From Janibacter limosus (lineage in GTDB: Bacteria > Actinomycetota > Actinomycetes > Actinomycetales > Dermatophilaceae), in the NCBI RefSeq assembly GCF_004295485.1, contig NZ_CP036164.1, forward strand, positions 2,480,001 to 2,544,000: 64,000 nucleotides of DNA, in the 5' to 3' direction. A program made the position numbers and the translations under genes. Numbering within the stretch: the first letter of the stretch is position 1; each line of letters starts with the position of its first letter. Under the pieces are notes generated by a model. The model was not told the DNA's origin. It saw nothing but the letters and a program-made list of their open reading frames with translations, and made no database searches. Shown here piece by piece: positions 1 through 64,000 of the stretch.

Positions 1-335
1 GACGCGAGCTCTACGAGAGGTTGGGGACGCTCGGCGAGCACGCCACCCGGATGGGCCGCTCGCTGCAGCGCTCCGTCGAGGACTACAACCGCCTCGTCGG
101 CTCGCTCGAGTCCCGTGTGCTCGTCAGCGCCCGACGGATGAGCGAGATCGGGATCAGCCCCGACGAGCTGGAGGAGGTGGCTCCCGTGACGACCGCTCCT
201 CGGCCGCTCACCGCGCCCGAGCTCCTCGACACCATCGCCGCCGACCACGCCCGGCCCGAGCTCGATCTCGGGCTGACACGTCAACCTCATCAGGAGCAGG
301 ATGGCCAGCATCCCCGACGCGAGGAGGCGTCATGA
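1..335 (+). CDS. rmuC: RmuC family protein, C-terminal end (partial)
   Basis: This is the last ~110 residues of a reading frame that enters from the left edge. The visible part (RELYERLGTLGEHATRMG, then a helix with DYNRLVGSLESRVLVSARR) matches the conserved C-terminal region of RmuC, a coiled-coil, nuclease-like protein that limits DNA rearrangements at inverted repeats. It is followed by a variable acidic and Pro-rich tail. The stop TGA overlaps the ATG of the next gene (ATGA at 332-335), which suggests translational coupling. The start and the catalytic domain lie outside the window, so activity cannot be judged. Confidence 0.8.
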   Translation, partial: RELYERLGTLGEHATRMGRSLQRSVEDYNRLVGSLESRVLVSARRMSEIGISPDELEEVAPVTTAPRPLTAPELLDTIAADHARPELDLGLTRQPHQEQDGQHPRREEAS

Positions 336-955
336 GCCAGACATCCGACACCGAACGCGGCACCGAGCCCGGGACCGCTTCCCAGGGACCCGGAGCGGCT
401 GCCGAGCGCCCGCCCTCATGGGAGCCGCCACTGGCCGGTACTGACGCCGAGCAGATCGTAGCGGCGCTCGACCGGCAGCGCGCCACCTTCCGGTGGAAGG
501 CCGACGGCCTCGACGCCGCGGGCCTGGGGTCACGCTTCGGCGCCTCACGGCTGACGCTCGGCGGTCTGCTCATGCACCTCGCCCTCGTCGAGGACTACTA
601 CTCCAGCACCCGCCTGTCCGGCACGCCCCTCGACTCCCGCTGGGACGAGGTCGTCGCCGACGAGGACTCCGACTTCACCCCGAGGGAGTCGCCCGAGGAG
701 CTCTACGCGCTCTACGACGAGGTGGTCGGTGCGGCCCGACGCCGCTACGCAGCCGCCCTCGCCGACGGTGGTCTCGACCAATCGGTGCACATGGGCATCC
801 CCGAGGTGGGTCACGCCAACCTGCGCCGGCTGCTGCTCGACCTCCTCGAGGAGTACGGCCGGCACACCGGTCACGCCGACCTGCTGCGCGAGGCCGTCGA
901 CGGGCGCGTGGGCGAGGACCCCGACGAGGAGTGGGTCACCCCCTGGGACCGATGA
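332..955 (+). CDS. DinB/DUF664-like protein (mycothiol-transferase superfamily)
   Basis: A 207-residue protein. Residues 1-40 are a disordered Thr/Pro-rich lead. The rest looks like the four-helix-bundle DinB/DUF664 fold: it opens with EQIVAALDRQRATFRWKADG, carries a central helix with LLMHLALVEDYY, and closes with EEYGRHTGHADLLREAVDG. The His residues in the last two segments are in the right places for the fold's usual metal site. Actinobacterial members are metal-dependent S-transferases, often mycothiol-dependent, or have no known substrate. The start overlaps the rmuC stop, so the pair is probably one operon. The fold is fairly secure and the substrate is unknown. Confidence 0.75.
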   Translation: MSQTSDTERGTEPGTASQGPGAAAERPPSWEPPLAGTDAEQIVAALDRQRATFRWKADGLDAAGLGSRFGASRLTLGGLLMHLALVEDYYSSTRLSGTPLDSRWDEVVADEDSDFTPRESPEELYALYDEVVGAARRRYAAALADGGLDQSVHMGIPEVGHANLRRLLLDLLEEYGRHTGHADLLREAVDGRVGEDPDEEWVTPWDR

Positions 956-1039
956 GTCCCCCGTGCGTGGGCGCTCCGGCTCCCAACCCCCACAGGGCAG
1001 CCCCTCCGTGAGGCCGCGAGCGTGCGCCATGATCGACGC

Positions 1040-1510
1040 ATGACGCAGGAGATGCCATCACCGGCCAGCTGGTACTTCGAGGACTTCGCCGTGGGTCAGG
1101 TCTTCCGCACCCAGGGCCGCACCATCACGGAGAGCGACATCGTGAGCTTCGCCGGGTGGAGCTGGGACACCAACCCGGTGCACACCGACGCAGTCAGCGC
1201 CGCCGGCGGGCGATTCGGCGAGCCGATCGCCCACGGTGTCCTGGGCCTCTCCGTCGCGATGGGTCTGCTCTCCCGCTTGGGCATCTTCGAGGCCTGCTCG
1301 ATCGCCCTACTCGGCATCGACGGCTGGCGGTTCGAGGCTCCCGTGGTCGTCGGCGACACAGTCCGGTGCACCGTCACCATCACCGGGGCCCGGGCCACGA
1401 GCAAGGGCGACGCCGGCATCCTCGAGCGTGACCTCGTGCTCACCAACCAGGACGACGTGGTCGTCCAGCGCGGCAGCATCGGCCTGATGGTCGCGCGCCG
1501 CCAGGCCTGA
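1040..1510 (+). CDS. MaoC-like (R)-hydratase / hotdog-fold protein
   Basis: A 156-residue single hotdog domain. It begins YFEDFAVGQVF, as MaoC-type dehydratases do, and carries the hydratase-2 motif with Asp43 and His48 (DTNPVHTD), then a glycine-rich central helix (IAHGVLGLSVAMGL). The family hydrates enoyl-CoA thioesters or acts in polyketide and fatty-acid metabolism; the substrate here is not known. ATG 1040 is preferred over GTG 1022. A -10-like CATGAT (1028-1033) lies exactly 6 nt before the ATG and there is no Shine-Dalgarno site, so the mRNA is probably leaderless. The gene converges on hutI. Confidence 0.8.
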   Translation: MTQEMPSPASWYFEDFAVGQVFRTQGRTITESDIVSFAGWSWDTNPVHTDAVSAAGGRFGEPIAHGVLGLSVAMGLLSRLGIFEACSIALLGIDGWRFEAPVVVGDTVRCTVTITGARATSKGDAGILERDLVLTNQDDVVVQRGSIGLMVARRQA

Positions 1511-1589
1511 CCTCACCCCACGCGCCTCGCGCCTCAACCCTCCCGCTCGACCCGTCACACCTCGCGCCTCGCGTCTCATCCCCCGCCCC

Positions 1590-2750
1590 TCAGACCTCCA
1601 GCACCCGCGCGATCGGCACACCGGCCCGGTAGCTCAGGTGCAGGTGGTTGGGCGCCTCGAGCACCGTGAGGTCAGCGCGTGCACCGACCTCGATGCGGCC
1701 GATGTCGTCGCGGTGCAGGGCGCTGGCGCCACCACGGGTCGCGGCGACGACCGCCTCGCTCGGGGTCATCCCCATCTCGCGGACGGCGAGCGCGATGACG
1801 AAGGGCATCGAGCTGGAGTAGCAGGTCCCGGGGTTGCAGTCGCTGGCCAGCGCCACCGAGACACCGGCGTCGAGCAGGGCCCGCGCGTCCGGGTAGGGCG
1901 AGCGGGTGGAGAACTCCACGCCCGGCAGGAGTGTGGCGGTCGTCGTCCCGGCCGCCCCCACCAGTGCATCGACGTCCGCGGCCGACAGGTACGTGCAGTG
2001 GTCGACGCTCGCGGCCCCGAGCTCGCAGGCCAGCTGCACGCCGGGCCCGTGCCCGAGCTGGTTGCCGTGCACGCGCAGCCCGAGTCCCGCGGCCCGACCG
2101 GCGAGCAGCACCTCCCGCGACTCCTCACCGGTGAAGGCGTGGGGCGAGTGCGGCTCGCAGAAGACATCGATCCACCGCGCGTGCGGCGCGCAGGCCGTGA
2201 GCATCTCCCCCGTGACGAGCGAGACGTAGGCAGCACGGTCCTCGCGCATCTCGGCCGGCACGACGTGCGCGCCGAGGTAGGTGACCTCGTCGGTCACCTC
2301 GGCGGCCAGCCGCAGCGCGCGCTCCTCGTCGGCGACCGTGAGTCCGTAACCGGACTTCACCTCGACGGTGCTCGTGCCCTGGGCGCGCATCTCGGCGATG
2401 CGCGCGGCGAGGGCGGCGCGCAGCCAGTCATCATCGGCCGCACGGGTGGCCGCGACCGAGACACCGATCCCCCCACCGTCGTAGGCCTGCCCGGCCATCC
2501 GCGCGGCGAACTCCTCCGACCGGTCGCCAGCGAAGACGAGGTGTGCGTGGGAGTCGACGAACCCCGGTGTGACACAACGCCCCTCGAGGTCGATCACCGA
2601 GTCCGCGGCGGGTGCGGCCGAGGCCTCGCCGACCCAGGCGATCCGGTTGCCGACGACCACGAGCGCCATGTCGGACCGCAGGCCGGCTCCCCCTTCGCCC
2701 GTCCCGTCGCAGGTGACGAGCTCACCGATGTTGGTGACGAGAGTGCTCAT
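1590..2750 (-). CDS. hutI: Imidazolonepropionase
   Basis: A 386-residue amidohydrolase-superfamily enzyme. It opens 4-imidazolone-5-propionate to N-formimino-L-glutamate, the third step of histidine breakdown. Visible landmarks are the metal-binding HxH (His68 and His70 in [10 protein letters not shown]), a histidine in [16 protein letters not shown], and the late metal Asp in ALASDCNPG. Length is normal for HutI (~400). It is last of four co-oriented hut genes and starts 4 bp after the hutG stop. ATG 2750 is the only sensible start. It converges on the MaoC-like gene, with a 79-bp gap of imperfect CGCGCCTC repeats. Confidence 0.96.
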
Positions 2751-2754
2751 GGGG

Positions 2755-3678
2755 TCAGGCCTTCCTGCGTGCAGCAGCGCGGGTGATGACGCGATGGATC
2801 AGACGAGCGGCAATCCTGGCCGTGCGTTGATCGGTGTCGAAGCGTGGGCTGAGCTCGGTGACGTCGAGGTGGATCAGCTTGCCGCTGTCGGCGACGGCAT
2901 CGCACACCGCCTGGATGACGAAGGGCGGAACCCCCAGTGCCGCAGGCGCGCTCACGCCCGGAGCATTGGCAGCGGGCAACACATCGAGGTCGATCGACAG
3001 GTACAGCTCATCGACGCCCGCGAGGAACTGCTCGACAAAGGCGACCGGTCCCGCGACCTCCTGGCAGTCGTCGTCCAGCAGCCACGGCGCATCGAGCTCC
3101 GCCGCGGTGTCGAAGAGGACACCGGTGTTGCTCGCCCGGCTCACCCCGAGGACCGCGTAGTGCACGTCCAGACCCTGCGCCTGGCGGTCCCGGGCGATCT
3201 GCAGGAAGGGGGTCCCCGAGGTCGGCCGGTCCTCCTGCCGCAGGTCGAAGTGTGCGTCGAGGTTGAGCACGCCCAACCTCGGTCGCTGGCCGAGTCCGAG
3301 GTAGCTGCCGTAGGCGGTCTCGTGGCCGCCACCGAGCACCACCGTCAGAGGGGCCTCCTCGCGCGCGGCCTCGACGACGGCCCCGAGCCGGCGTTGACCG
3401 TCCTCGAGGTCGGTCCCCTCCACGGCGATGTCACCGTGGTCGACGACGGTGAGCTCGCCGTGCACCGCCAGCGAGGCGAGTGCCGAGCGAAGGGCGGTCG
3501 GCCCGTCGACCGCGCCGACCCGCCCCTTGTTGCGGTGCACCCCTTCGTCGCTGGCGAATCCGATGAGCGCCGCATCCGGACGCACCCCGGGTCCCGGAGC
3601 ACTCACCGTGCGGAAGAACCGCCGGTGCTCCGGCCCGGGTCCGTCCTCACGACCGACCCACTCGAATGCGGCGCTCAT
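2755..3678 (-). CDS. hutG: Formimidoylglutamase (arginase family)
   Basis: A 307-residue ureohydrolase-fold enzyme. It splits N-formimino-L-glutamate into glutamate and formamide, ending the histidine pathway in its formamide-releasing version. Mn-binding motifs are clear: GGGHE (residues 116-120), DAHFD (141-145) and the DxD in [12 protein letters not shown] 3678 is chosen because AAGGAG sits 5 nt upstream; a GTG at 3684 overlapping the hutU stop is a weaker alternative. No hutF is visible, consistent with this route rather than deimination to formylglutamate. Confidence 0.94.
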
Positions 3679-3680
3679 GC

Positions 3681-5366
3681 TCACTCCTTGCCGTCGCGGA
3701 TCTTCGGCTCCATCGGCACCCGCACGCCGCGCTCCTTGGCGACCTGCGCTGCCCGCAAGTACCCCGCGTCGACATGCCGCAGCACGCCCATGCCGGGGTC
3801 GTTGGTGAGCAGTCGCTCGAGCTTCTGCGCGGCCAGGTCGGTGCCGTCGGCCACGCCCACCTGCCCGGCGTGGATGGAGCGGCCGATGCCGACGCCACCA
3901 CCGTGGTGGATCGACACCCAGGTCGCGCCGGAGCTGGCAGCGGTGAGCGCGTTGAGCAGCGGCCAGTCGGCGATCGCGTCCGAGCCGTCGAGCATGGCCT
4001 CGGTCTCGCGGTAGGGCGAGGCCACGGAGCCGGAGTCGAGGTGGTCGCGGCCGATGACGATCGGCGCCTTGACCTTGCCGTCACGGACCAGCTCGTTGAA
4101 GAGCAGCCCGGCCTTCTGCCGCTCGCCGTAGCCGAGCCAGCAGATGCGCGCGGGCAGTCCCTCGAAGTCGACGAGCTCGCCCGCGGCGTCGAGCCAGCGG
4201 TGCAGGTGCTCGTTGTCGGGGAAGAGCTCCTTGAGCGCCGCATCGGTGACGGCGATGTCCTCCGGGTCACCCGACAGGGCCACCCAGCGGAAGGGACCCA
4301 GACCCTCGCAGAAGAGCGGGCGGATGTACGCCGGGACGAAGCCGGGGAACTCGAAGGCCCTTGTGTAGCCGGCCTGCCGGGCCTCGTCACGGATGCTGTT
4401 GCCGTAGTCGAAGACCTCGGCGCCCTCGTCCTGGAACTCGACCATCGCCTGGACCTGCGCGGCCATCGACTCCCGCGCCTTCTTGGTGAAGCCCTCCTCG
4501 TCGGCCTCGGCCTCACGGGTCCAGTCCTCGAGCGCGACCTCTGCCGGGAGGTAGCTCAGCGGGTCGTGCGCACTCGTCTGGTCGGTGACGATGTCGACCG
4601 CGATCTCGCCGGCGCGGTGACGGCGCAGGATCTCGGGGAAGACCTCGGCGGCGTTGCCGACGAGACCGACGGACAGGGCGCGGCTCTCTCCCTTCGCCGC
4701 CATGACCTTGGCCAGGGCGACGTCGAGATCGGTCTCGACCTCGTCGAGGTAGCGCTTGGACCGCCGGCGCTCCAGCCGGGTGATGTCGACGTCGACGATC
4801 AGGCAGGCGCCACCGTTGAGCGTGACGGCGAGCGGCTGGGCGCCACCCATGCCGCCACAACCACCGGTGAGCGTGAAGGTCCCGGCGAGCGTTCCCTCAA
4901 AGCGCTTGCGCGCCACCGCGGCAAAGGTCTCGTAGGTGCCCTGGAGGATCCCCTGCGTCGCGATGTAGATCCACGACCCAGCGGTCATCTGGCCGTACAT
5001 CATCAGACCCTCGGCCTCGAGCTTGCGGAACTCCGGCCACGTCGCCCAGTCGCCGACCAGGTTGGAGTTGGCCAGGAGCACGCGCGGCGCCCACGGGTTG
5101 GTGCGCAGCACACCGACCGGCTTGCCCGACTGGACGAGCAGGGTCTCGTCGTCCTCGAGGTCCGTGAGGGTCGCGACGATGGCGTCGTAGGCCGCCCACG
5201 ACCGCGCGGCGCGACCGGTCCCGCCGTAGACGACGAGGTCGTCGGGCCGCTCGGCGACCTCGGGGTCGAGGTTGTTCATCAGCATGCGCAGCGGCGCCTC
5301 GGTCTGCCAGCTGCGGGCGGTGAGCTCGGTGCCTCGGGGGGCACGCACGGGACGGGCTCCGTCCAT
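3681..5366 (-). CDS. hutU: Urocanate hydratase
   Basis: A 561-residue NAD+-dependent urocanase that converts urocanate to 4-imidazolone-5-propionate. Conserved blocks include [37 protein letters not shown], the active-site cysteine segment [11 protein letters not shown] and [18 protein letters not shown] 5366 is preferred because it begins the conserved [20 protein letters not shown] start and follows a purine-rich AAAGAGAG stretch. The frame stays open upstream through a REP-like palindrome (5396-5430), which should be non-coding. The stop lies just upstream of the hutG start, indicating coupling. Confidence 0.95.
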
Positions 5367-5456: not shown

Positions 5457-7025
5457 CTAGTTCAGCGGGCCGGTGACGGACTCGGCCGCGGCGCGGACCG
5501 ACCCGTCGACGACGGCAAGGTGGGCGGCGGCGAGGTCGGGCGAGGTGAATCGGTCCGGTCCCGGACCGCCGACCCCGTGCTCGGCGAGCGTCGCGATGAC
5601 GGCGGCGGTGGCCGGCGCAGGACGAAGGGGGGCCCGCAGCGCGATCCCCCGCGCGGCGGTGTAGAGCTCGATGCCGATGACCCGCGAGAGGGCGTCGACG
5701 CTGCGGCGCAGCTTGCGCGCCCCGCCCCAGCCCATCGACACGTGGTCCTCCTGCATGGCGCTGCTCGGGATCGAGTCGACGCTGGCGGGGGCGGCCAGTC
5801 GCTTCATCTCAGAGACCATCCCGGCGGCGGTGTACTGGGCGATCATCAGACCCGAGTCGGTGCCGGGGTCCTCCGCGAGGAAGGGAGGAAGTCCGTTGCT
5901 GCGCTTGGCGTCGAGGAATCGGTCGGTGCGCCGCTCGCTCATGCTCGCGACGTCCGCGGCGACGATCGCGAGGAAGTCCAGGACATAGGCGATCGGTGCG
6001 CCGTGGAAGTTGCCGTTGGACTCGACCCGCCCGTCGAGGGTGACGACGGGGTTGTCGATGGCCGCGGCCAGCTCGTACCCGGCGATGGTCGCGGCGTGCT
6101 CGACGGTGTCGCGGGCGCCGCCGTGGACCTGCGGCGCGCAGCGCAGCGAGTAGGCGTCCTGGACCCGGGTGCAGGCTGCGGGGTCGCGGTGGCTGTCGCG
6201 GATCGCGCTGTCGGACAAGACTGCTCGCATGTTGGCTGCCGACAGCGCTTGTCCGGGCTGCGGGCGCAGCGCCTGCAGGTCCGCGGCGAAGACGTCGTCG
6301 GTCCCGAGCAGGCCCTCGACGCTCATCGCGGTGGCGATGTCGGCGGCCGCCAGCAGGTGGCGCAGGTCGTGGACGGCCAGGCAGAGCATGCCGAGCATGC
6401 CGTCGGTGCCGTTGATGAGGGCCAGCCCCTCCTTCTCGTGCAGCTCGACGGGGGCCAGCCCCGCGTCGGCGAGCGCAGCTGCGGCATCGGTCTCGTCGCC
6501 ACCACCGACGCGGACCCTCCCTTCGCCCATGAGGGTCAGCGCGCAGTGGCTGAGCGGTGACAGGTCGCCTGAGCACCCGAGGGACCCGTACTCGTGCACG
6601 ACGGGGCTGATCCCGTGCTGCAGCAGGGCGAGGTAGAGGCGCAGGGTCTCCTCGCGGATGCCGGTGCGGCCCGTGGCGAGGGTCTGCACGCGCAGCAGCA
6701 TGAGCGCGCGGACGACCTCCTCCTCCACCTCGGGGCCGGCCCCGGCCGCGTGGCTGCGCACGAGCGAGCGCTGCAGGCGGGCGCGCTTGTCGAGCGGGAT
6801 GTGGGTCGTGGCCAGGGCGCCGAAGCCGGTCGAGACCCCGTAGTGCGCCACGGAGTCCTCGGCCAGTCCCTCGATGATGCTGCGGGCGGCGCGCACGCGC
6901 TCCCAGGCGGCATCGCTGATGGCGACGGGCGCGTGGTGGCGGGCGACGGCGACCACCTCGTCGATGGTGAGGGGACGGTCGCCGAGGACGACGGTGGTCG
7001 TGTCGGTCGTGGTGGCGGTGCTCAT
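5457..7025 (-). CDS. hutH: Histidine ammonia-lyase
   Basis: A 522-residue MIO-type ammonia-lyase that deaminates L-histidine to trans-urocanate, the committing step. The self-cyclising triad is Cys151-Ser152-Gly153 in GSLGCSGDLSPLSH; Cys replaces the textbook Ala but Ser and Gly, which build the MIO group, are kept. The segment HYGVSTGFGA (61-70) and the C-terminal QEDHVSMGW are also present. ATG 7025 gives a normal length; an open frame continues to 7097 but lacks family similarity. First gene of hutHUGI, divergent from the IclR-type regulator. A GACGAAGGG site near its 3' end (5621-5629) is encoded with rare CTT, CGT and CCT codons. Confidence 0.96.
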   Translation of the reverse strand: MSTATTTDTTTVVLGDRPLTIDEVVAVARHHAPVAISDAAWERVRAARSIIEGLAEDSVAHYGVSTGFGALATTHIPLDKRARLQRSLVRSHAAGAGPEVEEEVVRALMLLRVQTLATGRTGIREETLRLYLALLQHGISPVVHEYGSLGCSGDLSPLSHCALTLMGEGRVRVGGGDETDAAAALADAGLAPVELHEKEGLALINGTDGMLGMLCLAVHDLRHLLAAADIATAMSVEGLLGTDDVFAADLQALRPQPGQALSAANMRAVLSDSAIRDSHRDPAACTRVQDAYSLRCAPQVHGGARDTVEHAATIAGYELAAAIDNPVVTLDGRVESNGNFHGAPIAYVLDFLAIVAADVASMSERRTDRFLDAKRSNGLPPFLAEDPGTDSGLMIAQYTAAGMVSEMKRLAAPASVDSIPSSAMQEDHVSMGWGGARKLRRSVDALSRVIGIELYTAARGIALRAPLRPAPATAAVIATLAEHGVGGPGPDRFTSPDLAAAHLAVVDGSVRAAAESVTGPLN

Positions 7026-7078
7026 GACTCCATGCAACCCCCCTTCGCCCCGCTGCGGGAGCACCTGACCGACGGTAG

Positions 7079-7105: not shown

Positions 7106-7846
7106 ATGGCCAATGCCACCGCTGCCGGCCACGCCCTGCGTGCGCTGACCCACCTCGCCAGCCGCGCCGAGCCGATCCCCGCGGCCCATCTCGCGCGAGC
7201 CCTCGGGCTGCCGCGCAGCAGCACCTACCACCTGCTCGCCGTGCTGGTGGAGCACGGCTATGCCGTCCACTACGAGGACGAGCGCACCTACGGCATCGGG
7301 GCCGCGGTGCACGAGCTCGGCGCCGGCTACCAGCGCCAGGACCCGCTGCAGCGGCTCGCCCGCCCACTCGTCGAGCGGCTCGTCGACAGCACGACGCACA
7401 ACGCCCACCTGGCCGTGCTGTCCGGACGTGACGTCCTCTACGTCATCGAGGAGCGTGCAGCGGGTCGCCCTTCGCTCGTCACCGACGTGGGGGTGCGGCT
7501 GCCCGCCACCGTGACCGCCAGCGGCCTGGCGATGCTCGCGGCCCTGCCGCGCCGGCAGGTCACCGCGCTCTACCCGTCGGCGGCGGTCATGGTGAGCGAC
7601 GGCCCCGCCACCCCGTCGGCCCTGCGGCGCCAGCTGGTGGACGTGCGGGCCCGCGGCTACGCCGTGGAGGAAGGGAGCGTCTCCCCCGAGCTGTCGTCCG
7701 TCGCGTCCGCGGTGCTCGACCGGGACGGGCACCCCGTGGCGGCGGTGGCGATCACCTTCCGACACGACGAGGTCGACGAAGGGAGCCTGGCTCGCCTCGC
7801 GCAGGCGGCACGGCGTACCGCCGAGCTGGTGACTGGGCGGTTGTGA
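7106..7846 (+). CDS. IclR family transcriptional regulator, probable hut regulator
   Basis: A 246-residue protein with an N-terminal winged helix-turn-helix (about residues 5-65; PAAHLARALGLPRSSTYHLL is the HTH) and a C-terminal IclR effector domain from about residue 75 (ERAAGRPSLVTDVGVRLP). Regulators of this type bind small metabolites and control neighbouring catabolic genes. The gene is divergent from hutH and shares an 80-bp gap containing a dyad. Control of hutHUGI and of itself is therefore likely, with urocanate as the expected inducer by analogy. ATG 7106 has a good AAGGAG upstream. The regulatory target is inferred from position only. Confidence 0.85.
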   Translation: MANATAAGHALRALTHLASRAEPIPAAHLARALGLPRSSTYHLLAVLVEHGYAVHYEDERTYGIGAAVHELGAGYQRQDPLQRLARPLVERLVDSTTHNAHLAVLSGRDVLYVIEERAAGRPSLVTDVGVRLPATVTASGLAMLAALPRRQVTALYPSAAVMVSDGPATPSALRRQLVDVRARGYAVEEGSVSPELSSVASAVLDRDGHPVAAVAITFRHDEVDEGSLARLAQAARRTAELVTGRL

Positions 7847-14165: not shown

Positions 14166-15416
14166 TCACGCGCTCTGCGTCTCGCGTGCCCGGGCCCGCT
14201 CGAGGGCCCGCTGCCGGTCCTCCTCGGACTGCTGGGCGAGCTCGGCCGCCTTGGCATCGTCACGGGTCAGGCAGTCACCCGACTCCGGGTCGAAGACGTG
14301 CATGGTGTCGGGATCGAAGACGAAGTTGGCGTCATCGCCCTCGCGCACCCGCGAGCGCGGGTCGAGGTTGATGACCATCTGCGTGCGCATGCCCTCACCG
14401 TCGAGCTCCTTGTCGAGCTCGTCGAGCTTGTCCTTGACGGCACCCTCGACGGCGAAGGGGACGTAGGCGTACTGCTCGTTGCCGAGCCACTCCGCCTGGT
14501 CCACGGGCGCCTGGAACCGGACCGCGTTGGCCGGGACATCACCCAGGTCGGCGTCCTTGATGTGCTCCGGCCGGATCCCGACGATGAGCAGCTCCTTGCC
14601 GCTGGCGCGCTCCCGCACGGCAGCCGGCATGGGGACGCGGCAGAAGGGCAGCACGAGCTCGTCGCCCTCGACCTGGGCCGGCAGGAAGTTCATCGGCGGG
14701 GTGCCGATGAACCCGGCGACGAAGAGGTTGACCGGCTGGTCGTAGAGCTCGCGGGGGCTGGCGCACTGCTGCAGCACCCCCTTCTTCAGCACGGAGACGC
14801 GGTCACCGAGGGTGAGGGCCTCGGTCTGGTCGTGCGTCACGTAGATCGTCGTCGTGCCCATGCGGCGCTGCATGCGCGCGATCTCCGTGCGCATCTGCCC
14901 GCGCAGCTTGGCGTCGAGGTTGGACAGCGGCTCGTCAAAGAGGAAGGCGTCCGCCTCGCGCACGATCGCCCGCCCCATCGCCACGCGCTGGCGCTGGCCG
15001 CCCGAGAGGTTGGCCGGCTTGCGCTCGAGGTGCTCGTCCAGCTCCAGCATCGTGCTGGCCATGCGCACCTTGGAGTCGATCTCGTCGTTGGTGAACTTCC
15101 CCTTGGCCAGGCGAAGGGGGAAGGCGATGTTCTCGTAGACCGTCAGGTGCGGGTAGAGGGCGTAGTTCTGGAAGACCATCGACAGGTTGCGGTCCTTGGG
15201 CGAGAGGTCGTTGACCTCCTTGCCGTCGATGAGCAGCTCGCCGCTCGTGATGTCCTCCAGCCCGACGACCATGCGCAGCAGGGTCGACTTGCCGCACCCG
15301 GAGGGGCCGACGAAGATCATGAACTCGCCGTCCCTGATGTCCAGGCTCACGTCGTTGACCGCCGGGAAGCCGTCCCCGTACTTCTTGACGAGGTTGTTGA
15401 GGGTGATCTCAGCCAT
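14166..15416 (-). CDS. Sugar ABC transporter ATP-binding protein (UgpC/MsmK/SugC type)
   Basis: A 416-residue ATPase. Walker A is GPSGCGKST (residues 37-45), the signature LSGGQRQR starts at 137, and the Walker B Asp-Glu is at 161-162 in LFDEPLSNLDAKLRG, with H-loop THDQTEA. A C-terminal regulatory OB-like region (FIGTPPMNFLP, VGIRPEHI) is followed by an unusual 40-residue charged tail. Such ATPases energise CUT1 importers and may be shared among several. It is fourth in a minus-strand set with two permeases and a binding protein. Confidence 0.92.
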   Translation of the reverse strand: MAEITLNNLVKKYGDGFPAVNDVSLDIRDGEFMIFVGPSGCGKSTLLRMVVGLEDITSGELLIDGKEVNDLSPKDRNLSMVFQNYALYPHLTVYENIAFPLRLAKGKFTNDEIDSKVRMASTMLELDEHLERKPANLSGGQRQRVAMGRAIVREADAFLFDEPLSNLDAKLRGQMRTEIARMQRRMGTTTIYVTHDQTEALTLGDRVSVLKKGVLQQCASPRELYDQPVNLFVAGFIGTPPMNFLPAQVEGDELVLPFCRVPMPAAVRERASGKELLIVGIRPEHIKDADLGDVPANAVRFQAPVDQAEWLGNEQYAYVPFAVEGAVKDKLDELDKELDGEGMRTQMVINLDPRSRVREGDDANFVFDPDTMHVFDPESGDCLTRDDAKAAELAQQSEEDRQRALERARARETQSA

Positions 15417-16307: not shown

Positions 16308-17255
16308 TCAGCTCCTCCCCTGCGTAAGGTCGACCTTGAATCCTCGGACGAACACCGCCGCGATGACGAGCACGCAGAGGAAGAGGATCACCGACAGTGC
16401 AGAGCCGAGCCCGATCTCTGTCCTGTCGATGGTCTGCCGGTAGATGAGCCCGGAGAGGGAGTTGGTCCCGTTGGCGCCCCCGGTCATGATGAAGATGTTG
16501 TCGAAGATGCGGAAGGCGTCGAGCGTGCGGAAGAGCAGCGCCACCATGATCGCCGGCTTCATGTTGGGCAGGACCACCTTGTAGAGGACCTGCATCCAGG
16601 ACGCGCCGTCGACCTTGGCGGCCTCCTCCATCGAGGTGTCCACCTGCGCCAGACCGGCCAGCAGGAGCAGCGACATGAAGGGGGTCGTCTTCCAGATCTC
16701 GGAGAGGCAGATGACGAAGATCGAGGGCCAGAAGCTGCCGAACCAGTCGTAGTTGTCGCTCACGCCCGGGATCCAGTTGGTCCAGCGGTTCACGAAGCCG
16801 GTGTCGGTCTGGTACATGAAGAGCCAGGTGAAGCCGGAGACCACGGTGATGATCGAGTACGGGATGAGCACCACGGTGCGCAGGGTGCGCCGCGGCAGGA
16901 CGATCCGGTGCATCACCAGGGCGATGATGAAGCCGAGGACCAGCTCGACGACCACCGTGATGACCGTGATGATCACCGTCGCCCACATCGCGCTCCAGAA
17001 GACGGAGTCGCTGAAGGAGACGATGTAGTTGTTGAGCCCGACGAACTCCTTGTTGGCGGGGTCGGTCAGCCGGTAGTTGAAGAAGCTGTTCCACACCGCC
17101 TGCAGGATCGGGTAGGCGGTGACCAGGAGCATGACGACGAAGGCGGGCATCGCCAGCTTCCAGCCGAGCCGCTGCTCGGCCTTGGCCCGGTCGGACAGGC
17201 GAGGCTTGCCCCCCTTCGTCGTGGGGGTCTTGGGGGAGTCGGTCACGGTGCTCAC
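16308..17255 (-). CDS. Sugar ABC transporter permease (MalF/SugA type)
   Basis: A 315-residue permease. It has a cytoplasmic charged N-terminus, six membrane segments and the EAA loop EEAAKVDGASWMQVLYKVVL followed by PNMKP. Start is GTG 17255, overlapping the stop of the binding-protein gene (GTGA). The N-terminal TTKGGK contains a GACGAAGGG-type site (17212-17220, complement). Confidence 0.9.
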   Translation of the reverse strand: MSTVTDSPKTPTTKGGKPRLSDRAKAEQRLGWKLAMPAFVVMLLVTAYPILQAVWNSFFNYRLTDPANKEFVGLNNYIVSFSDSVFWSAMWATVIITVITVVVELVLGFIIALVMHRIVLPRRTLRTVVLIPYSIITVVSGFTWLFMYQTDTGFVNRWTNWIPGVSDNYDWFGSFWPSIFVICLSEIWKTTPFMSLLLLAGLAQVDTSMEEAAKVDGASWMQVLYKVVLPNMKPAIMVALLFRTLDAFRIFDNIFIMTGGANGTNSLSGLIYRQTIDRTEIGLGSALSVILFLCVLVIAAVFVRGFKVDLTQGRS

Positions 17256-18562: not shown

Positions 18563-18665
18563 GTCGCTCCCTTCGTCCGAGGACGCGACGCAGGCGGGGT
18601 CGCCGACGTCGCCTCCCAATGGTCTGTCTACACCGCGGATGTGGTCCATGACACACATACGGGCC

Positions 18666-18677: not shown

Positions 18678-18764
18678 TCGCGACCGGTTCGTGATCGGCA
18701 GCGTGGTCGCAGGCTGCGTGATCGACCGCTCACGGACGCCGACGAAGGGGGCCGCAGGCTCGGG

Positions 18765-20959: not shown

Positions 20960-20974
20960 CGAGGGGGGTGTGAC

Positions 20975-23610: not shown

Positions 23611-23672
23611 GGTGGAGGTGAACCCGCCGACGATTCGCCGGCGAGCCCCCTTCCACCCAGGCTCCGGACATG

Positions 23673-23714
23673 ACGAAGGGCGGTACCCACCGTGAGGTGA
23701 GCACCGCCCTTCGT
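23673..23714 (-). terminator. Terminator of rplM-rpsI
   Basis: ACGAAGGGCGGT pairs exactly with ACCGCCCTTCGT around an 18-nt loop that has its own short stem. It lies 69 bp after the rpsI stop. The stem is an inverted pair of the dispersed CGAAGGG motif. Confidence 0.85.
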
Positions 23715-24803: not shown

Positions 24804-24825
24804 ACCCCTTCGGGAGCGAAGGGGT
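24804..24825 (-). promoter_or_regulatory. Leader hairpin of rplM-rpsI
   Basis: A perfect 9-bp stem of ACCCCTTCG and CGAAGGGGT encloses a 4-nt loop (CTCC in the RNA). It lies between the TAGAAT promoter and rplM. It could be an attenuator or an L13 autoregulation site. It too is an inverted pair of the CGAAGGG motif. Confidence 0.55.
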
Positions 24826-27309: not shown

Positions 27310-27352
27310 GACGAAGGGAGCCGCACCCGTGATGGGTGCGACTCCCTTCGTC
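27310..27352 (-). terminator. Terminator of the alpha operon (after rplQ)
   Basis: GACGAAGGGAGCCGCACCC pairs with GGGTGCGACTCCCTTCGTC around a 5-nt loop, with one mismatch. Its outer ends are two inverted GACGAAGGG motifs. Confidence 0.88.
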
Positions 27353-34497: not shown

Positions 34498-36696
<2,199 letters not shown>

Positions 36697-45896: not shown

Positions 45897-45965
45897 TTCT
45901 CACTCCTGTCGTCGTGCTGGTTCTCGCTCAGGGCGAGCCTGGCCGAACTGATGTGGTCTACGCGG

Positions 45966-45991
45966 GCGAAGGGGGCGTGTGCCCCCTTCGC
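45966..45991 (-). terminator. Terminator of the S10 unit (after rpsQ)
   Basis: GCGAAGGGGGC and GCCCCCTTCGC form a perfect 11-bp stem with loop GTGT, 12 bp after the rpsQ stop. It divides the S10 unit from the spc unit. The stem is an inverted CGAAGGG pair. Confidence 0.88.
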
Positions 45992-51628: not shown

Positions 51629-51629
51629 C

Positions 51630-51656
51630 ACGAAGGGGGGAGGCTCCCTCCTTCGT
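51630..51656 (-). terminator. Terminator of yihY
   Basis: ACGAAGGGGGGAG and CTCCCTCCTTCGT arms with one mismatch, 14 bp after the yihY stop. Another inverted CGAAGG-type stem. Confidence 0.8.
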
Positions 51657-51669
51657 CCTGGTGTGGCCG

Positions 51670-52761
51670 TCAGTCCTGGTCGGCGAGGTCCGCCGTGGAG
51701 CGGCCCTGGTCGTGCAGCCCCTGGATCCGCAGCGCGCGGGCCTCCTCGAGCACGCCCTCCTGCGCCTCCTGCGCCGCATCGGACTTCGTCGTGTCCCGAA
51801 GGGGGAGCAGCAGCTCCTCCTCCGCGGCCATGCCGGCCTGCAGCTGGCGCGAGCGCTCGACCTCGGAGTCGATCTCGGCCCCGAGCAGCAGCACGTTGTT
51901 GACGATCCACAGCCACAGGAGGAAGACGATGACGCCGGCCAGCGAGCCGTAGGTCTTGTTGTACGAGCCGAAGTTGGAGACGTAGAAGCCGAAGGCCACC
52001 GAGGCGATGATCGCCACGAGGATGGCCACGGCGGCGCCGGGCGTCAGCCAGCGGAACTTCGGCTGGCGCACGTTGGGCGTCGCCCAGTAGAGCAGGCCGA
52101 CCATGAAGATGACGACGAGCAGGATGACCGGCCACTTGGCGAGGTTCCAGGTCATGACGGCCGCGTCGCCGAGACCGATCGCGTCACCGATGGCCCTGGC
52201 CAGCTCACCGCTGACGGCGACCGACAGGATGATGGCCGCGGCCAGCAGCAGCAGGATCGCGGTGACGACCAGCTGCATCGGGCGCAGCTTGACGAAGCCG
52301 CGCCCCTCCGGCACCTCGTAGATCCGGTTGAGAGCGCGGCCGAAGGCGCCGACGTACCCGGACGCGGACCAGAGGGCACCGGCGAGACCGACGAAGAGAC
52401 CGAGCCCGGCCGCCGGCGAGTTGACCATCTGGTCCAACGGACCCTCCAGCGTCGTGCCGACGCTGCCCGTGCCCAGCTGCTCGAGCACGTCGAGGATGGT
52501 GGTCTTGGTCTTCTCCGGCTCCCCCACCAGACCGAGGATGGAGACGAGCGCCAGCATGGCCGGGAAGATCGACAGCACGGAGAAGTAGGTGAGCGCCGCA
52601 GCGAGGTCCGTGCAGCCGTCCGCGCTGAACTCCTTGAGCGCCCGCTTGAAGGCGAAGGTCCAGCTGCGCCTCTTGAGCTGGCGAAGGGAGGGCTTGGCCT
52701 CCTCGTCCAGCCCGGCGTCCTCCAGTGCGGTGTCGCTCTGCGTGGTGTCGTCGGTGGCCAT
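51670..52761 (-). CDS. YihY/BrkB family membrane protein
   Basis: A 363-residue integral membrane protein with about six segments. DLAAALTYFSVLSIFPAMLA and GLFVGLAGALWSASGYVGAF are the family blocks, then GVIVFLLWLWIVNNVLLLGA near the end. Charged cytoplasmic N- and C-termini flank the core. Once called ribonuclease BN in error; its real role (perhaps export) is unknown. Divergent from the ABC gene; a perfect palindrome lies between. Confidence 0.88.
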   Translation of the reverse strand: MATDDTTQSDTALEDAGLDEEAKPSLRQLKRRSWTFAFKRALKEFSADGCTDLAAALTYFSVLSIFPAMLALVSILGLVGEPEKTKTTILDVLEQLGTGSVGTTLEGPLDQMVNSPAAGLGLFVGLAGALWSASGYVGAFGRALNRIYEVPEGRGFVKLRPMQLVVTAILLLLAAAIILSVAVSGELARAIGDAIGLGDAAVMTWNLAKWPVILLVVIFMVGLLYWATPNVRQPKFRWLTPGAAVAILVAIIASVAFGFYVSNFGSYNKTYGSLAGVIVFLLWLWIVNNVLLLGAEIDSEVERSRQLQAGMAAEEELLLPLRDTTKSDAAQEAQEGVLEEARALRIQGLHDQGRSTADLADQD

Positions 52762-52859: not shown

Positions 52860-53825
52860 ATGGATGTGGCTGCGGATCAGCAGGTGGTCGCCACCCAGGG
52901 CCTGACCAAGCAGTACGCCGGCGTGACGGCGCTCGACGAGCTCTCCCTCGAGATCAGTCCGGGGATCACCGGCGTGGTGGGTGTCAACGGTGCCGGGAAG
53001 TCCACGCTCATCAAGATCCTGCTCGGGCTGCTCCCGGCGACGTCGGGCTCGGTGCGGGTACTCGGGATGGATCCTCGGTCGTCGGCCAGGGACATCCGGG
53101 CCCTCGTCGGCTACATGCCCGAGCACGACTGCCTGCCAGCCGACGTCACGGCTGCCGACTTCGTCCTGCACATGGCCACCATGTCCGGCCTCCCGCGGCA
53201 GGCCAGCCGGGAGCGCGCATCGGACGTGCTGCGCCACGTCGGCCTCGACGAGGAGCGCCACCGGGCCATGGGTGGGTACTCGACGGGCATGAAGCAGCGG
53301 GCCAAGCTCGCCCAGGCCCTCGTGCACGACCCGGCGCTGGTCTTCCTCGACGAGCCGACCAGCGGGCTGGACCCACGTGCCAGGGACGACATGCTCGACC
53401 TGATCGCCCGCGTGCACACGGACTTCGGGATCTCCGTCGTCGTGACCAGCCACCTGCTGGGCGAGCTCGAGCGGACCGCGGACCGGATCGTCGTGCTGGA
53501 CAGCGGACGACTGCTGCGCGCCTCGTCCACCTCGGACCTCACCCAGACCACCGGCACCGTCCTCGTCGAGGTGCTCGGGCCCGAGGGCAGCGACCGCCTC
53601 CTCGGGCAGGCGCTCCTCGACCGGGGCATCGGCGCCTGGCCGGTCGGCGGCGACGTCGAGGTCCGGGTGGACCGGCCCGAGGTCCTGGACGCGATCCGCG
53701 ACGCCGCGGTCGACCTCGATCTGGGGCTCGTCCGCCTGCAGGAGCGGCGGCACACCCTCGACGAGGTCTTCCTTCCTCCCCCTTCGTCCCCCGCCCTCGA
53801 GACGCATGCAGGAGGCCACCCCTGA
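52860..53825 (+). CDS. ABC transporter ATP-binding protein (ABC-2 type), first
   Basis: A 321-residue ATPase. Walker A VNGAGKST, signature YSTGMKQR, Walker B with LVFLDEPTSGLDP, and H-loop TSHLLGE; then a C-terminal ~90-residue domain. It couples with the next permease. ATG 52860 directly follows GGGAGG, so GTG 52866, with better spacing, may be the true start. First of four overlapping genes. Confidence 0.9.
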   Translation: MDVAADQQVVATQGLTKQYAGVTALDELSLEISPGITGVVGVNGAGKSTLIKILLGLLPATSGSVRVLGMDPRSSARDIRALVGYMPEHDCLPADVTAADFVLHMATMSGLPRQASRERASDVLRHVGLDEERHRAMGGYSTGMKQRAKLAQALVHDPALVFLDEPTSGLDPRARDDMLDLIARVHTDFGISVVVTSHLLGELERTADRIVVLDSGRLLRASSTSDLTQTTGTVLVEVLGPEGSDRLLGQALLDRGIGAWPVGGDVEVRVDRPEVLDAIRDAAVDLDLGLVRLQERRHTLDEVFLPPPSSPALETHAGGHP

Positions 53826-54730: not shown

Positions 54731-55641
54731 GCACGCTGCGCCTGGACTCCGTGTCGCGCTGGTACGGCAATGTCGTCGCGGTCAACGACGTGACGATGGA
54801 GGTGGGGCAGGGCATCACCGGGCTGCTCGGGCCCAACGGCGCCGGCAAGTCGACGGTCCTGTCGATCATGGCGGGCCTGCTGTCGCCATCGGCGGGCACC
54901 GCGACACTGGACGGGCACCCCCTTCGTCAGGACACGTCGGTCTACCGCCAGATCGGTCTGGTCCCCGTGCAGGAGTCGGTCTACGACTTCCTCACCGCGC
55001 GGCAGCTGGTGCGGCTCAACGCCGACCTGCACAAGATCCCCTCGGCCGGAGCGGCGACCGACCACGCCCTGCAACTCGTTGACCTCGTCGGGGCCGCCGA
55101 CCGCAAGATCTCGACCTTCAGCAAGGGGATGCGCCAGCGGGTCAAGATGGCGTCGGCCCTGGTGCACGACCCCCAGGTCCTGCTGCTCGACGAGCCCTTC
55201 AACGGCATGGACCCGATCCAGCGGCACGCCATGGCCACGCTGCTCGCGGACTACGCAACGCAGGGGCGCACCATCGTCTTCAGCTCGCACATCCTCGAGG
55301 AGGTGGAGTCCTTGGCCGGGCAGATCGAGGTGATCGTCTCGGGACGGCACGCGGCCTCCGGTGACCGCACCGCCATCCGGCGGCTGATGACCGACCGGCC
55401 CAACCAGTACCGCATCCGCAGCAGCGACAACCGCCGCCTGGCGGCCGCGCTCATGGCCGGCGCCAGCGTGCGAGGGGTGCGGCTGCACGGTGACCGCCAC
55501 CTCGAGCTCGAGGCCGACGACTTCGGCGGCTTCGCGCGCATCGTGCCCCGGGTGGCCCGGGAGCACGACATCCGCATCCTGGAGCTGACACCGACGGACG
55601 AGTCGCTCGAGAGCATCTTCGGCTACCTGGTGAGCCGATGA
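54727..55641 (+). CDS. ABC transporter ATP-binding protein, second
   Basis: A 304-residue ATPase: Walker A GPNGAGKST, signature FSKGMRQR, LLLDEPFNGMDP, SSHILEEVE. Overlaps the preceding permease (GTGA). At 54920 the motif GACGAAGGG is read His-Pro-Leu-Arg-Gln using CTT CGT. It pairs with the second permease, so the operon encodes two half-exporters or a four-subunit one. Confidence 0.9.
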   Translation: MSTLRLDSVSRWYGNVVAVNDVTMEVGQGITGLLGPNGAGKSTVLSIMAGLLSPSAGTATLDGHPLRQDTSVYRQIGLVPVQESVYDFLTARQLVRLNADLHKIPSAGAATDHALQLVDLVGAADRKISTFSKGMRQRVKMASALVHDPQVLLLDEPFNGMDPIQRHAMATLLADYATQGRTIVFSSHILEEVESLAGQIEVIVSGRHAASGDRTAIRRLMTDRPNQYRIRSSDNRRLAAALMAGASVRGVRLHGDRHLELEADDFGGFARIVPRVAREHDIRILELTPTDESLESIFGYLVSR

Positions 55642-57161: not shown

Positions 57162-57740
57162 TCAGCCGATCCAGCCGCGCACGGTGAGCGTCCGCAGGAG
57201 TCCGTCACGCGTCGCCGTCCCACGATGGCCGGCCTTCGCCCGGATGTTGGCGATGTGCACCTTGAGCGTCCGCTCGCTCATCCCGAGCCGCGTCGCCACC
57301 TCGGCTCGGGTCCGATCGGCCCACTGCACCAGATACGCCTGAGCCACATCCCGCTCCCGGCCGGTCAGGACCTCCACCGGCACCGCAGCCCCCGGCCACG
57401 CGACCCGCTGACCGCCATCCACCTGGCGGACCACGGCCACCAGCTCTCGTGGGGCGTGGAGTCCGCTGACATAGGCAGAGGCTCCGGCGTCCCTCAGCGC
57501 TGCCACGCGGGGCACGGGCAGGGTGCCGCCCCAGACCACGGTGGGCCGGTCCCCCCTTCGCCTCGCCTCGAGCACGTGGAGGTCGCCAACCGCCACCAGC
57601 TCAGCGACGAGCAGGCCCGCTGTCGCCACCGGGTCGTCGACGACCTCGGACGAGATGCCGTGCTCCGTCAGCACCACGGCCACCGCATCGGCGTGCAGGC
57701 GCCACCGTGACCACACGGCGACGGCGGGCGGTGGGGGCAT
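57162..57740 (-). CDS. LuxR-type helix-turn-helix regulator (a)
   Basis: A 192-residue protein. The C-terminal ~60 residues are a LuxR HTH (VLTGRERDVAQAYLV, AEVATRLGMSERTLKVHIAN). The N-terminal ~110 residues look like a degenerate receiver domain without an obvious phosphorylated Asp. No kinase is near. ATG 57740 lies 16 bp from the start of the divergent LuxR gene. Confidence 0.83.
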   Translation of the reverse strand: MPPPPAVAVWSRWRLHADAVAVVLTEHGISSEVVDDPVATAGLLVAELVAVGDLHVLEARRRGDRPTVVWGGTLPVPRVAALRDAGASAYVSGLHAPRELVAVVRQVDGGQRVAWPGAAVPVEVLTGRERDVAQAYLVQWADRTRAEVATRLGMSERTLKVHIANIRAKAGHRGTATRDGLLRTLTVRGWIG

Positions 57741-58506: not shown

Positions 58507-58526
58507 GGGGTGCGGGTATCGGCACG

Positions 58527-58568
58527 ACGAAGGGCCCGCCTCCCCTGACGGGGAGACGGGCCCTTCGT
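58527..58568 (-). terminator. Terminator of tuf
   Basis: ACGAAGGGCCCG and CGGGCCCTTCGT plus an inner CTCCCC/GGGGAG stem; 27 bp after the tuf stop. Again an inverted CGAAGGG pair. Confidence 0.88.
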
Positions 58569-62109: not shown

Positions 62110-62114
62110 TGCTG

Positions 62115-62585
62115 TCACCAGCGGTAGTGCGCGAAGGCCTTGTTGGACTCGGCCATCTTGTGCGTGTCCTCGCGACGCTTGACCGCGGCACCGAGGCCGT
62201 TGCTCGCGTCGAGGATCTCGTTCATGAGGCGCTCGGTCATCGTCTTCTCACGACGCTGACGCGAGTACCCGACGAGCCAGCGCAGCGACAGGGTCGTGGC
62301 GCGGCCCGGCTTGACCTCGATCGGCACCTGGTAGGTCGCGCCACCGACACGGCGGGACTTGACCTCCAGGGACGGGCGGACGTTGTCCAGGGCGCGCTTG
62401 AGCGTCTGGACGGGGTCGGTGCCGGTCTTCTCACGGACACCCTCGAGGGCGTCGTAGACGATGGCCTCGGCGATGGACTTCTTGCCATCGAGGAGGATCT
62501 TGTTGACCAGCTGGGTCACCAGCGGGGACTGGTAGACCGGGTCGATGACGAGCGGCCGCTTCGGGGCGGGACCCTTGCGAGGCAT
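62115..62585 (-). CDS. rpsG: 30S ribosomal protein S7
   Basis: A 156-residue S7 ([40 protein letters not shown], ending [12 protein letters not shown]). Start shares one base with the rpsL stop. Confidence 0.98.
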
Positions 62586-62959
62586 TACTTCTTCTCCTTC
62601 TTGGCGCCGTAACGGCTGCGGGCCTGCTGACGACCCTTGACACCCTGGGTGTCGAGGGACCCGCGGACGATCTTGTAACGGACACCGGGGAGGTCCTTCA
62701 CTCGGCCACCGCGCACGAGCACGATGGAGTGCTCCTGCAGGTTGTGACCGACGCCCGGGATGTAGGCGGTGACCTCGATGCCGCTCGTCAGGCGCACGCG
62801 GGCGACCTTACGAAGGGCGGAGTTCGGCTTCTTGGGGGTGGTGGTGTACACACGCGTGCACACTCCACGGCGCTGCGGCGAGCCCTTGAGGGCAGGCGTG
62901 GCGGCCTTGGACGGCTTGTCCTGCCGGCCCTTGCGCACCAGCTGGTTGATGGTAGGCAA
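62585..62959 (-). CDS. rpsL: 30S ribosomal protein S12
   Basis: A 124-residue S12, the decoding-centre protein. No ATG or GTG is available; TTG 62959 gives the canonical [14 protein letters not shown], with GGAG 7 nt upstream. The streptomycin sites are wild type: [13 protein letters not shown] and [12 protein letters not shown], so no known resistance change is present. First gene of the str unit, with a ~230-nt leader. Confidence 0.98.
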
Positions 62960-63270
62960 CCTGTGTCTCCGTACGTCGTTGATGTTGTCTGCACCGGACG
63001 GGCGGACCCGACCGGTACTCCTTGGATGCCACCTGCGACCCCCGCACTCGGGCGTGTCGCTGGTGGTGCTCCCCCCTGCACTCCCCTGCGCGATCAACTG
63101 GATCGCGCCAAGGCGCCCGGCGAGAGGTGCGAGAACGGTCATCTGCGACCCTCCTCGACGCGCGTCACGGCACAGCCATGCCACGCACGCTGACCAACGA
63201 TACCGGCGCGCCCCGCAGCGTCACAAATCGGTATCCCCGGGCCCCTCCGGCCCGGTGGCGCGATCGGTCG
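62960..63270. other. rpsL leader and promoter region, no gene
   Basis: This 311-bp gap holds the rpsL promoter near 63197-63226 and a ~230-nt leader. No supported ORF. Confidence 0.65.
63197..63226 (-). promoter_or_regulatory. rpsL promoter TTGTGA-18-TATCGT
   Basis: On the minus strand: TTGTGA (63226-63221), an 18-bp spacer, TATCGT (63202-63197) preceded by GG. Expected start near 63190. Confidence 0.65.
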
Positions 63271-63801
63271 TCAGACGATGCGGTCGAAGGCCTGCGCGTA
63301 CCTGAAGTCGCCGGCCATCTCGGGTCGCCAGGCGCGCAGGGTCAGCGCCTGGAAGTAGCGGTCCTCCCAGTCCCCCGGGGAGCCGATGCCCAGCCGGGAC
63401 GCCGGGACGAAGCCGAAGAACCCGTAGTACTCCGGGTCGCCGAGGAGCACGACGACGGGCTCGGCGGCCTGCTCGGCGCTGGCGACGACGGACATGACCA
63501 AGGCGGCACCGATGCCCTGCTGCTGGTGATCGGGTCGGACCGAGATCGGGCCGAGCCCCACCGACGGTGCACCGTCGAGGCTCGCGCGGCTGCAGACCAC
63601 GTGGCCGACGATCTCACCGTCGAGCTCGGCGACGAAGGTCAGCTCGTCGATGACCGAGCCGTCGGAGCGCAGGCCGCGGATCAACTCGCGCTCGACGGAC
63701 TCCCTTCGCCCCTGTGGAATGCCGAAGGCGGCGTCGTGCAGCTCCTGGGTCGCGCGCGCGTCGCGCGGGCTCTCCCGGCGGATGATCAGGTCGTCGCGCA
63801 T
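63271..63801 (-). CDS. GNAT family N-acetyltransferase
   Basis: A 176-residue acetyltransferase. The acetyl-CoA site is LGPISVRPDHQQQGIGAALV (Q/RxxGxG/A type). It resembles YhbS-like proteins (VVLLGDPEYYGFFGFVPASR). Substrate unknown. It overlaps the membrane-protein gene by one base and may form an operon with it. Confidence 0.9.
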   Translation of the reverse strand: MRDDLIIRRESPRDARATQELHDAAFGIPQGRRESVERELIRGLRSDGSVIDELTFVAELDGEIVGHVVCSRASLDGAPSVGLGPISVRPDHQQQGIGAALVMSVVASAEQAAEPVVVLLGDPEYYGFFGFVPASRLGIGSPGDWEDRYFQALTLRAWRPEMAGDFRYAQAFDRIV

Positions 63802-64000
63802 CAGTACCGGTCCGTGATCCAGTGGCTGTTGCCACTCAGGAAGGCCCCGAGGTAGACCGCGGCCACCACGAGCAGGACGACGGTCACGATGGTGGCGTCG
63901 CTGCGGGAGCGCCGCGCGAAGGTGGTCACCGCGGCGGCCGCGAGGACCAGCGCCAGCAGCTTGGACACACCACCGGGCTTCAGCAGCAGCACCAGCGCCC
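63801..64000 (-). CDS. Small membrane protein, possibly partial
   Basis: The frame is open to the right edge. GTG 63992 would give 63 residues with two membrane segments (LLALVLAAAAVTT; TIVTVVLLVVAAVYLGAFL) joined by a basic loop. GTG 63968 is another option, and the gene may begin beyond the window. No family recognised. Confidence 0.55.
   Translation of the reverse strand, partial: ALVLLLKPGGVSKLLALVLAAAAVTTFARRSRSDATIVTVVLLVVAAVYLGAFLSGNSHWITDRY

Follow-up and report, generated by a model that had tools for sequence, protein, structure and literature searches.

The stretch of DNA analysed here, termed the window in the following, comprises 64,000 nucleotides at positions 2480001-2544000 of the Janibacter limosus chromosome (3,545,254 bases; 3.55 Mb) and carries many copies of a short dispersed word. 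A preliminary description had recorded 19 copies of the 9-mer GACGAAGGG and taken them for a genome-wide signal of the DNA uptake type. All 19 copies are present (11 on the plus and 8 on the minus strand), with one start given as 7774 that is in fact 7775, and the estimate of about one copy by chance agrees with a mean of 1.05 and a maximum of 4 in shuffled sequences. The core CGAAGGG, put at near 65 copies against about 15, occurs 65 times, with a mean of 11.1 and a maximum of 23 in shuffles. The uptake-type interpretation is supported by the analyses presented here, although the exact motif differs from the 9-mer, which is one slice of a longer and better one, GRCGAAGGGRG with the core CGAAGGGRG; the window holds 23 copies of this 11-mer versus 0.44 in shuffles. 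In a sample of 864 kb, made up of the window plus 40 stretches of 20 kb each and covering roughly one quarter of the chromosome, the full 11-mer was found 331 times. Among the 918 occurrences of CGAAGGG in this sample the next two bases are GG in 344 cases and AG in 231, and in 65% a G is located two bases upstream; compared with the Markov expectation, GGCGAAGGGGG is in 57-fold and GACGAAGGGAG in 24-fold excess.

Genes in the window and the sample were called with our own crude caller and not taken from a standard annotation. By these calls, 14 of the 19 copies of GACGAAGGG in the window lie within genes, in several reading frames, and five outside. The full motif occurs as GGCGAAGGGGG at 15110..15120 and 19883..19893 on the plus strand and at 2689..2699, 7039..7049 (outside called genes), 32131..32141, 38025..38035 and 57552..57562 on the minus strand; as GGCGAAGGGAG at 52680..52690 (plus) and at 4688..4698, 6517..6527 and 63700..63710 (minus); as GACGAAGGGGG at 5621..5631, 18741..18751, 26758..26768 and 31881..31891 (plus) and at 17210..17220, 53778..53788 and 54918..54928 (minus); and as GACGAAGGGAG at 7775..7785 (plus) and 18567..18577 (minus, outside called genes). 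Further copies of GACGAAGGG are located at 1797..1805 (antisense to CCC TTC GTC), 2917..2925 and 39119..39127 on the plus strand and at 3541..3549, 25714..25722 and 35165..35173 on the minus strand. The codons that had been read from several of these sites were confirmed: Leu-Arg is encoded as CTT CGT at 5621, 26758, 39119 and 54920, Glu-Gly as GAA GGG at 7775, 31881 and 35165 and likewise at 3541 (GAC GAA GGG in frame), and Pro-Ser as CCT TCG at 53780.

Other copies form inverted pairs, here given on the plus strand. Terminator-like hairpins are built by GACGAAGGG with an inverted CGAAGGG partner at 23672..23713 (z -4.6) and 58526..58567 (z -6.7) and by two full GACGAAGGGAG motifs in a convergent inverted pair at 27310..27352 (z -6.3); GGCGAAGGGGG and an inverted CGAAGGGGG partner form a hairpin at 45965..45990 (z -4.4), and CGAAGGGGG at 51631..51639 lies in another (folded as 51620-51665; z -5.0). 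The proposal that inverted core pairs build such structures thus holds for the hairpins at 23673, 27310, 45966, 58527 and 51630, each of which folds better than 200 of 200 of its own shuffles (z -4.4 to -6.7), and less well for the one at 24804, presumably the rplM leader as named in the preliminary description, where a divergent CGAAGGG pair (24806..24823) forms a short hairpin of modest stability (z -1.8; 12 of 200 shuffles were as good). Throughout the 864-kb sample, CGAAGGG forms 52 convergent pairs within 60 bp, 18 of them spaced 33-37 bp, versus 22 divergent and 34 same-strand pairs, and the best of 99 other 7-mers with 700-1200 copies (drawn from 120) reaches 28 convergent pairs. Inverted pairs of the word are thus found in hairpins whose folds suggest a function as terminators.

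An origin of the word in codon usage, base composition or the spread of one type of terminator would fit the five of 19 window copies outside called genes, and also the finding that GACGAAGGG mildly exceeds its reversed control in many other genera of this family, perhaps on account of terminators, but it is hardly conceivable given where most copies are located. In the sample, 265 of the 331 full motifs lie within called genes and 64 are fully intergenic, with intergenic DNA making up about 9% of the sample by the same crude calls; the enrichment is thus not confined to terminators, and together with the pair analysis this rules out a spread with terminators only. In 478 confident genes (484 kb of the sample), CGAAGGGRG is present 292 times, 134 times sense and 158 times antisense, versus a mean of 39.5 (standard deviation 4.9, maximum 46) in 30 rounds of synonymous codon permutation within genes, a null that is conservative because the motif's own codons are kept in it. 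The excess is seen in six of six frames, with 6 versus 0.1, 64 versus 10.9 and 64 versus 1.2 copies (observed versus permuted) in the sense frames and 17 versus 0.5, 91 versus 26.2 and 50 versus 0.6 in the antisense frames, in agreement with the earlier statement that the word occurs in several frames and is not a codon effect. When all 9-mers with at least 25 copies in the crude called genes were ranked against a codon-permuted null (10 rounds), the 25 most over-represented all overlapped the motif. Dinucleotide, codon-permuted and reversed-pattern controls are all exceeded, so that neither of the two outcomes named as refuting in the preliminary description, a frequency equal to the null or an enrichment limited to terminators, was observed, and a codon or composition artefact is ruled out by the window shuffles and the codon-permuted nulls.

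The whole chromosome contains 2,365 copies of CGAAGGGRG, 1185 on the plus and 1180 on the minus strand, with 35 (21 and 14) for the reversed control; the corresponding numbers for GACGAAGGG are 450 and 458, with 10 and 10 for the reversed pattern, so that the strand balance noted earlier extends to the chromosome. Across 86 bins of 10 kb the sites are distributed in a Poisson-like manner (mean 6.66, variance 6.57, no bin empty). Alternatively, the word might serve another DNA process, as a Chi-like recombination signal, as a site for a segregation or nucleoid protein, or as an unexplained word such as HIP1 (highly iterated palindrome 1) of cyanobacteria. Such words are also present in many copies, and the GAAGGG part of the core recalls the guide words of FtsK and SpoIIIE. 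Chi and words of the KOPS type (FtsK-orienting polar sequences), short and frequent as well, are strand-polar, whereas the Janibacter word is not: of 575 sites in the sample, 285 are on the plus strand, and the largest agreement with a replication axis over all rotations and origins was 0.530 (P 0.76 versus shuffled strands). A polarity like that of KOPS, SpoIIIE recognition sequences (SRS) or Chi is thereby ruled out. The lack of a sense or antisense bias and the convergent pairs at hairpins also speak against such a process, and HIP1, an abundant word too, is palindromic, whereas the motif differs from its reverse complement.

One region stands out by the near absence of the motif, a conjugative-type island of 42 kb at C1:1361995-1404000 (L024:11995-20000 with L210 and L211; ends set by eye), which encodes an integrase, SSB, a TraG-type coupling protein, a TrwC relaxase, a transposase and a Shedu domain. 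It contains one site versus 28.0 expected at the sample mean (Poisson P 2e-11), or 16.6 after order-2 composition scaling for its lower G+C (0.649 versus 0.704; P 1e-6); since its own composition predicts 1.1 sites, the island is at chance level. Together, 28 sites lie in nine other 10-kb bins with a G+C below 0.685, and other integrase-bearing regions are mixed in motif content. In those parts of the poorest bins that were scanned with Pfam, we found an integrase and a conjugation coupling protein in L024, an integrase in L033, a glycosyltransferase in L034 and biosynthesis-type enzymes in L043, while the single L023 protein scanned was assigned to no family. A mutational or repair bias, resembling very short patch (VSP) repair, that creates the word without a selected function would affect both strands and every frame as well. 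It would, however, need to favour about eleven positions simultaneously, and would leave unexplained the inverted pairs, the absence of an excess in relatives of similar G+C and, unless the island is very young, its chance level, which makes it a very unlikely cause.

The abundance of the word is restricted to a small group of organisms. Among 186 genomes from 53 genera of the family, GACGAAGGG is present 445-1082 times in 16 of 16 Janibacter genomes and 497-722 times in three of three genomes of one other genus, g35; the other 167 genomes have 18-183 copies, many of them mildly above the reversed control. Conservation in relatives had been proposed as a check; high counts in the family are limited to these two genera. 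At the level of the order (396 genomes), CGAAGGGRG reaches 1452-2365 copies in five genomes of Janibacter and g35 and at most 128 in the other 391, and in 296 genomes of the phylum (partly the same as in the order sample) it is found 2365 times in J. limosus and at most 239 times in the other 295. The recombination and segregation machinery should be common to the 167 relatives, and the lack of a comparable excess in them adds to the case against a site for another DNA process, which on the whole we regard as decidedly improbable. The density of CGAAGGGRG is 3.6-5.8 per 10 kb in six loci (two of them in a single assembly) of named Janibacter records, and none of 74 loci of other records has more than three sites. 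The best full-length matches of ComEC in named genomes are from Janibacter sp. Soil728 (91%) and J. indicus (78%), followed by J. hoylei (76%) and J. melonis (56%). The TadE protein of the g35 genome G090 is identical to one named Marihabitans asiaticum, and from this we infer that the motif-bearing clade consists of Janibacter with Marihabitans, g35 being its putative sister genus.

Within this clade the word exists in dialects, which can be written out as CGAAGGGAG versus CGAAGGGGT. After CGAAGGG, the ratio of AG to GT is 231:47 in J. limosus (864 kb), 41:16 in other Janibacter genomes (251 kb, G053 left out) and 46:10 in G063 (177 kb, with two loci common to the previous pool); in g35 (250 kb) and G053 (177 kb) it is 12:52 and 8:28, respectively. 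The GT dialect is thus common to g35 and to G053, the Janibacter genome most divergent in ComEC among those aligned (64%), and may be the ancestral form. When the window was compared with seven near relatives, 36 of 56 aligned motifs were conserved versus 23.6 expected from neighbouring 9-mers, a comparison that favours the sites (these were allowed R, whereas the control 9-mers had to be identical) and whose cells are not independent; 10 further motif sites are present in these relatives only, at places where the window has none. In more distant genomes, conservation of window motifs was 0 of 4 (G053), 3 of 7 (g35) and 0 of 4 (three outgroups).

A second, unrelated intergenic repeat is located in the window at 20806-20969. 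It is built of near-palindromic units of 22 bp (CGCACGACCTTAAGGAGATGCG) that form small arrays, commonly with a spacing of 30-32 bp, and 37 of the 40 sites of CCTTAAGG in the 864-kb sample lie outside called genes. Different palindromes are frequent in two other Janibacter genomes: TGCCCGGGCA, embedded in units resembling CGCAACTGCCCGGGCAGTTGCG, has 38 sites in 177 kb of G053 (L215-L221, L172, L195), and ACCCTAGGGT has 9 sites in 178 kb of G063 (L222-L228, L169, L192). These may be versions of one kind of element that differ between species.

The genome encodes DprA and a comEA-comEC locus at 1.908-1.911 Mb, whose ComEA has SLBB and HHH domains. Three ATPase matches exceed the T2SSE cut-off, all in three Tad/Flp loci, and there are two weaker ones; of the genes that the preliminary description had listed for inspection, comEA and comEC are thus present, and the pilus ATPases above the cut-off are of the Tad/Flp type. 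ComEC was detected in 33 of 33 family genomes tested, and in 12 of the 13 Janibacter and g35 genomes among them its gene is a single uninterrupted frame. In G066 the gene is present as two fragments (contig 6, 460899-462488 and 551462-552271) separated by about 89 kb, as a result of an insertion, a genomic rearrangement or faulty assembly. One TGA lies inside the class-I TadA match in G090 (contig 2, 334081-334992), reflecting either decay or a sequencing error, and when we grouped the matches ourselves, G092 (also of g35) lacked class II Tad, while G057 and G090 lacked class III. The split comEC, this stop codon and the missing Tad classes, together with a more than twofold variation of GACGAAGGG copy number within the genus (445 to 1082; some genomes are incomplete), would be in line with a former uptake signal, a word that the clade once used, with competence since lost in part or all of its living species. 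The intact comEC of most genomes, the conserved sites (as counted against the stricter control) and the sites new in near relatives speak against such a loss, and we consider it improbable.

The best candidate for a receptor, and a weak one, is the class-I TadE minor pilin. In 19 of 19 motif-bearing genomes it has an extra cysteine (CSSTAR; C97 of P0006), with a cysteine in this column in none of 25 other genomes examined (G165 has one close by; the matching G020 was left out); among TadE homologues, 52 of 120 listed (158 found) have a cysteine within three columns of C97. In the structural model of P0006 (predicted local distance difference test, pLDDT, 87), C33 is located in a long helix (2-45) and C97 in the last strand (95-102); the model had no fold match in the PDB at E 0.001 or better and none by sequence (best E 0.27). 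As the cysteine stems from one clade, and hence from one event, it is a lead and not evidence. In two Janibacter genomes a 483-aa gene on the opposite strand lies between tadC and the class-I pilin genes (L170 7112-8563; L171 7243-8694), and two genes for similar-looking, possibly secreted proteins are located between neighbouring Tad operons at L056:16591-18528.

We assign a probability of roughly 0.78 to the reading that the motif serves as a DNA uptake sequence in Janibacter and its putative sister genus. A surface DNA receptor of a competence pilus, most likely of the Tad/Flp type, would bind double-stranded DNA carrying GRCGAAGGGRG, ComEA and ComEC would import one strand, and DprA and RecA would recombine it, so that motif-biased uptake would spread and repair copies by recombination wherever coding and transcription permit. 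Such a spread would be expected to leave copies by the thousand, on either strand and in every frame, together with pairs at terminators, lineage dialects, and chance levels in recently acquired mobile DNA. Judged from sequence analysis, the word is real, dominant and clade-specific and bears the traits that mark uptake sequences, with competence, raised uptake of motif-bearing DNA and the identity of the receptor predicted from it.

Several observations weigh against an uptake sequence. Copies with one mismatch show only a weak excess (0 to 8.3-fold, for the seven core positions of both forms), while drift under biased uptake might leave more; the corresponding comparison with a codon-permuted null was set aside because the motif's own rare codons inflate that null. 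Site counts fall with G+C across the 10-kb bins (r 0.48), and an island at chance level would follow for any lineage-specific word that is slow to accumulate. Motif density is not clearly lower in called genes with low G+C at third codon positions (GC3; 0.51 versus 0.56-0.64 per kb). Many of these calls are probably in wrong frames, which renders GC3 classes uninformative as a proxy for foreign genes and is the reason why the codon test was repeated on the 478 confident genes. ComEC and, where looked for, class-I Tad are also present in relatives without the motif, so that the machinery alone does not predict it, and the motif-rich G066 (1020 copies) has the split comEC. No receptor was found, and the class-I Tad locus gave no gene seen to be unique to motif bearers. 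Finally, all evidence comes from one clade and thus from one origin, and no uptake or transformation experiment on Janibacter was found in the literature searched.

That literature, with most subscription papers and preprints outside the search, contained nothing on Janibacter together with natural transformation or an uptake sequence; Janibacter and 'natural competence' coincide in one paper, which by its title concerns fungal endosymbionts. Uptake sequences have been described for Pasteurellaceae and Neisseriaceae (PMC7811141, PMC12616744), and none for Actinobacteria or Micrococcales was found by title among the matches listed. On its best reading the Janibacter word would be an independently evolved uptake sequence and the first for a Gram-positive bacterium in the literature searched. 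A more specific version, which we regard as possible but doubtful, is that self-DNA recognition in transformation arose independently for a third time, and for the first time in a Gram-positive, with a class-I TadE minor pilin of a Tad/Flp competence pilus, stapled by the clade-specific C-terminal cysteine, reading GRCGAAGGGRG, and with dialects separating most Janibacter from the sister genus. A third origin, in a distant phylum and based on another type of pilus, would allow the debated question of why uptake codes evolve to be treated as a comparison, and would show Tad pili to be capable of reading DNA sequence. In that case Janibacter would be naturally transformable by donor DNA bearing the word, which would offer a practical genetic tool, and the word would help to map foreign islands.

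Micrococcus luteus belongs to the same order as Janibacter. Like J. limosus, it is an actinobacterium with comEA/comEC and Tad pili and without a comG cluster (PMC4322843, PMC6370729). Its comEA/comEC and genes of two tad clusters are reported to serve transformation (PMC4322843, PMC6370729, PMC8467076), with tad genes required for transformation and TadE/F proteins for surface Flp (PMC4322843); the term 'uptake sequence' is absent from the main text of PMC4322843 and PMC8467076, and the species was not searched by name. The uptake signal sequence (USS) of Pasteurellaceae is likewise short and abundant and labels self-DNA for uptake (PMC7811141). The Janibacter word is unrelated to it in sequence, belongs to bacteria with a different envelope and pilus and, unlike the USS, has no flanking AT-rich tracts in the 864-kb sample. 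The DNA uptake sequence (DUS) of Neisseriaceae is recognized by the type IV minor pilin ComP. Binding of the DUS is described as requiring two disulfides in ComP, and a loop anchored by a disulfide is reported to be common to ComP and the predicted USS receptor (PMC12616744). The Janibacter word differs from the DUS in sequence, in its occurrence in Actinomycetota and in the Tad type of the ATPases above the cut-off. DUS are reported to lie within genes, to form inverted pairs associated with terminators and to occur in dialects that follow phylogeny, with mobile islands deviating in their DUS content (PMC3630211, PMC7371117), and like them the Janibacter word is a short sequence in great excess that is found both in genes and as inverted pairs.

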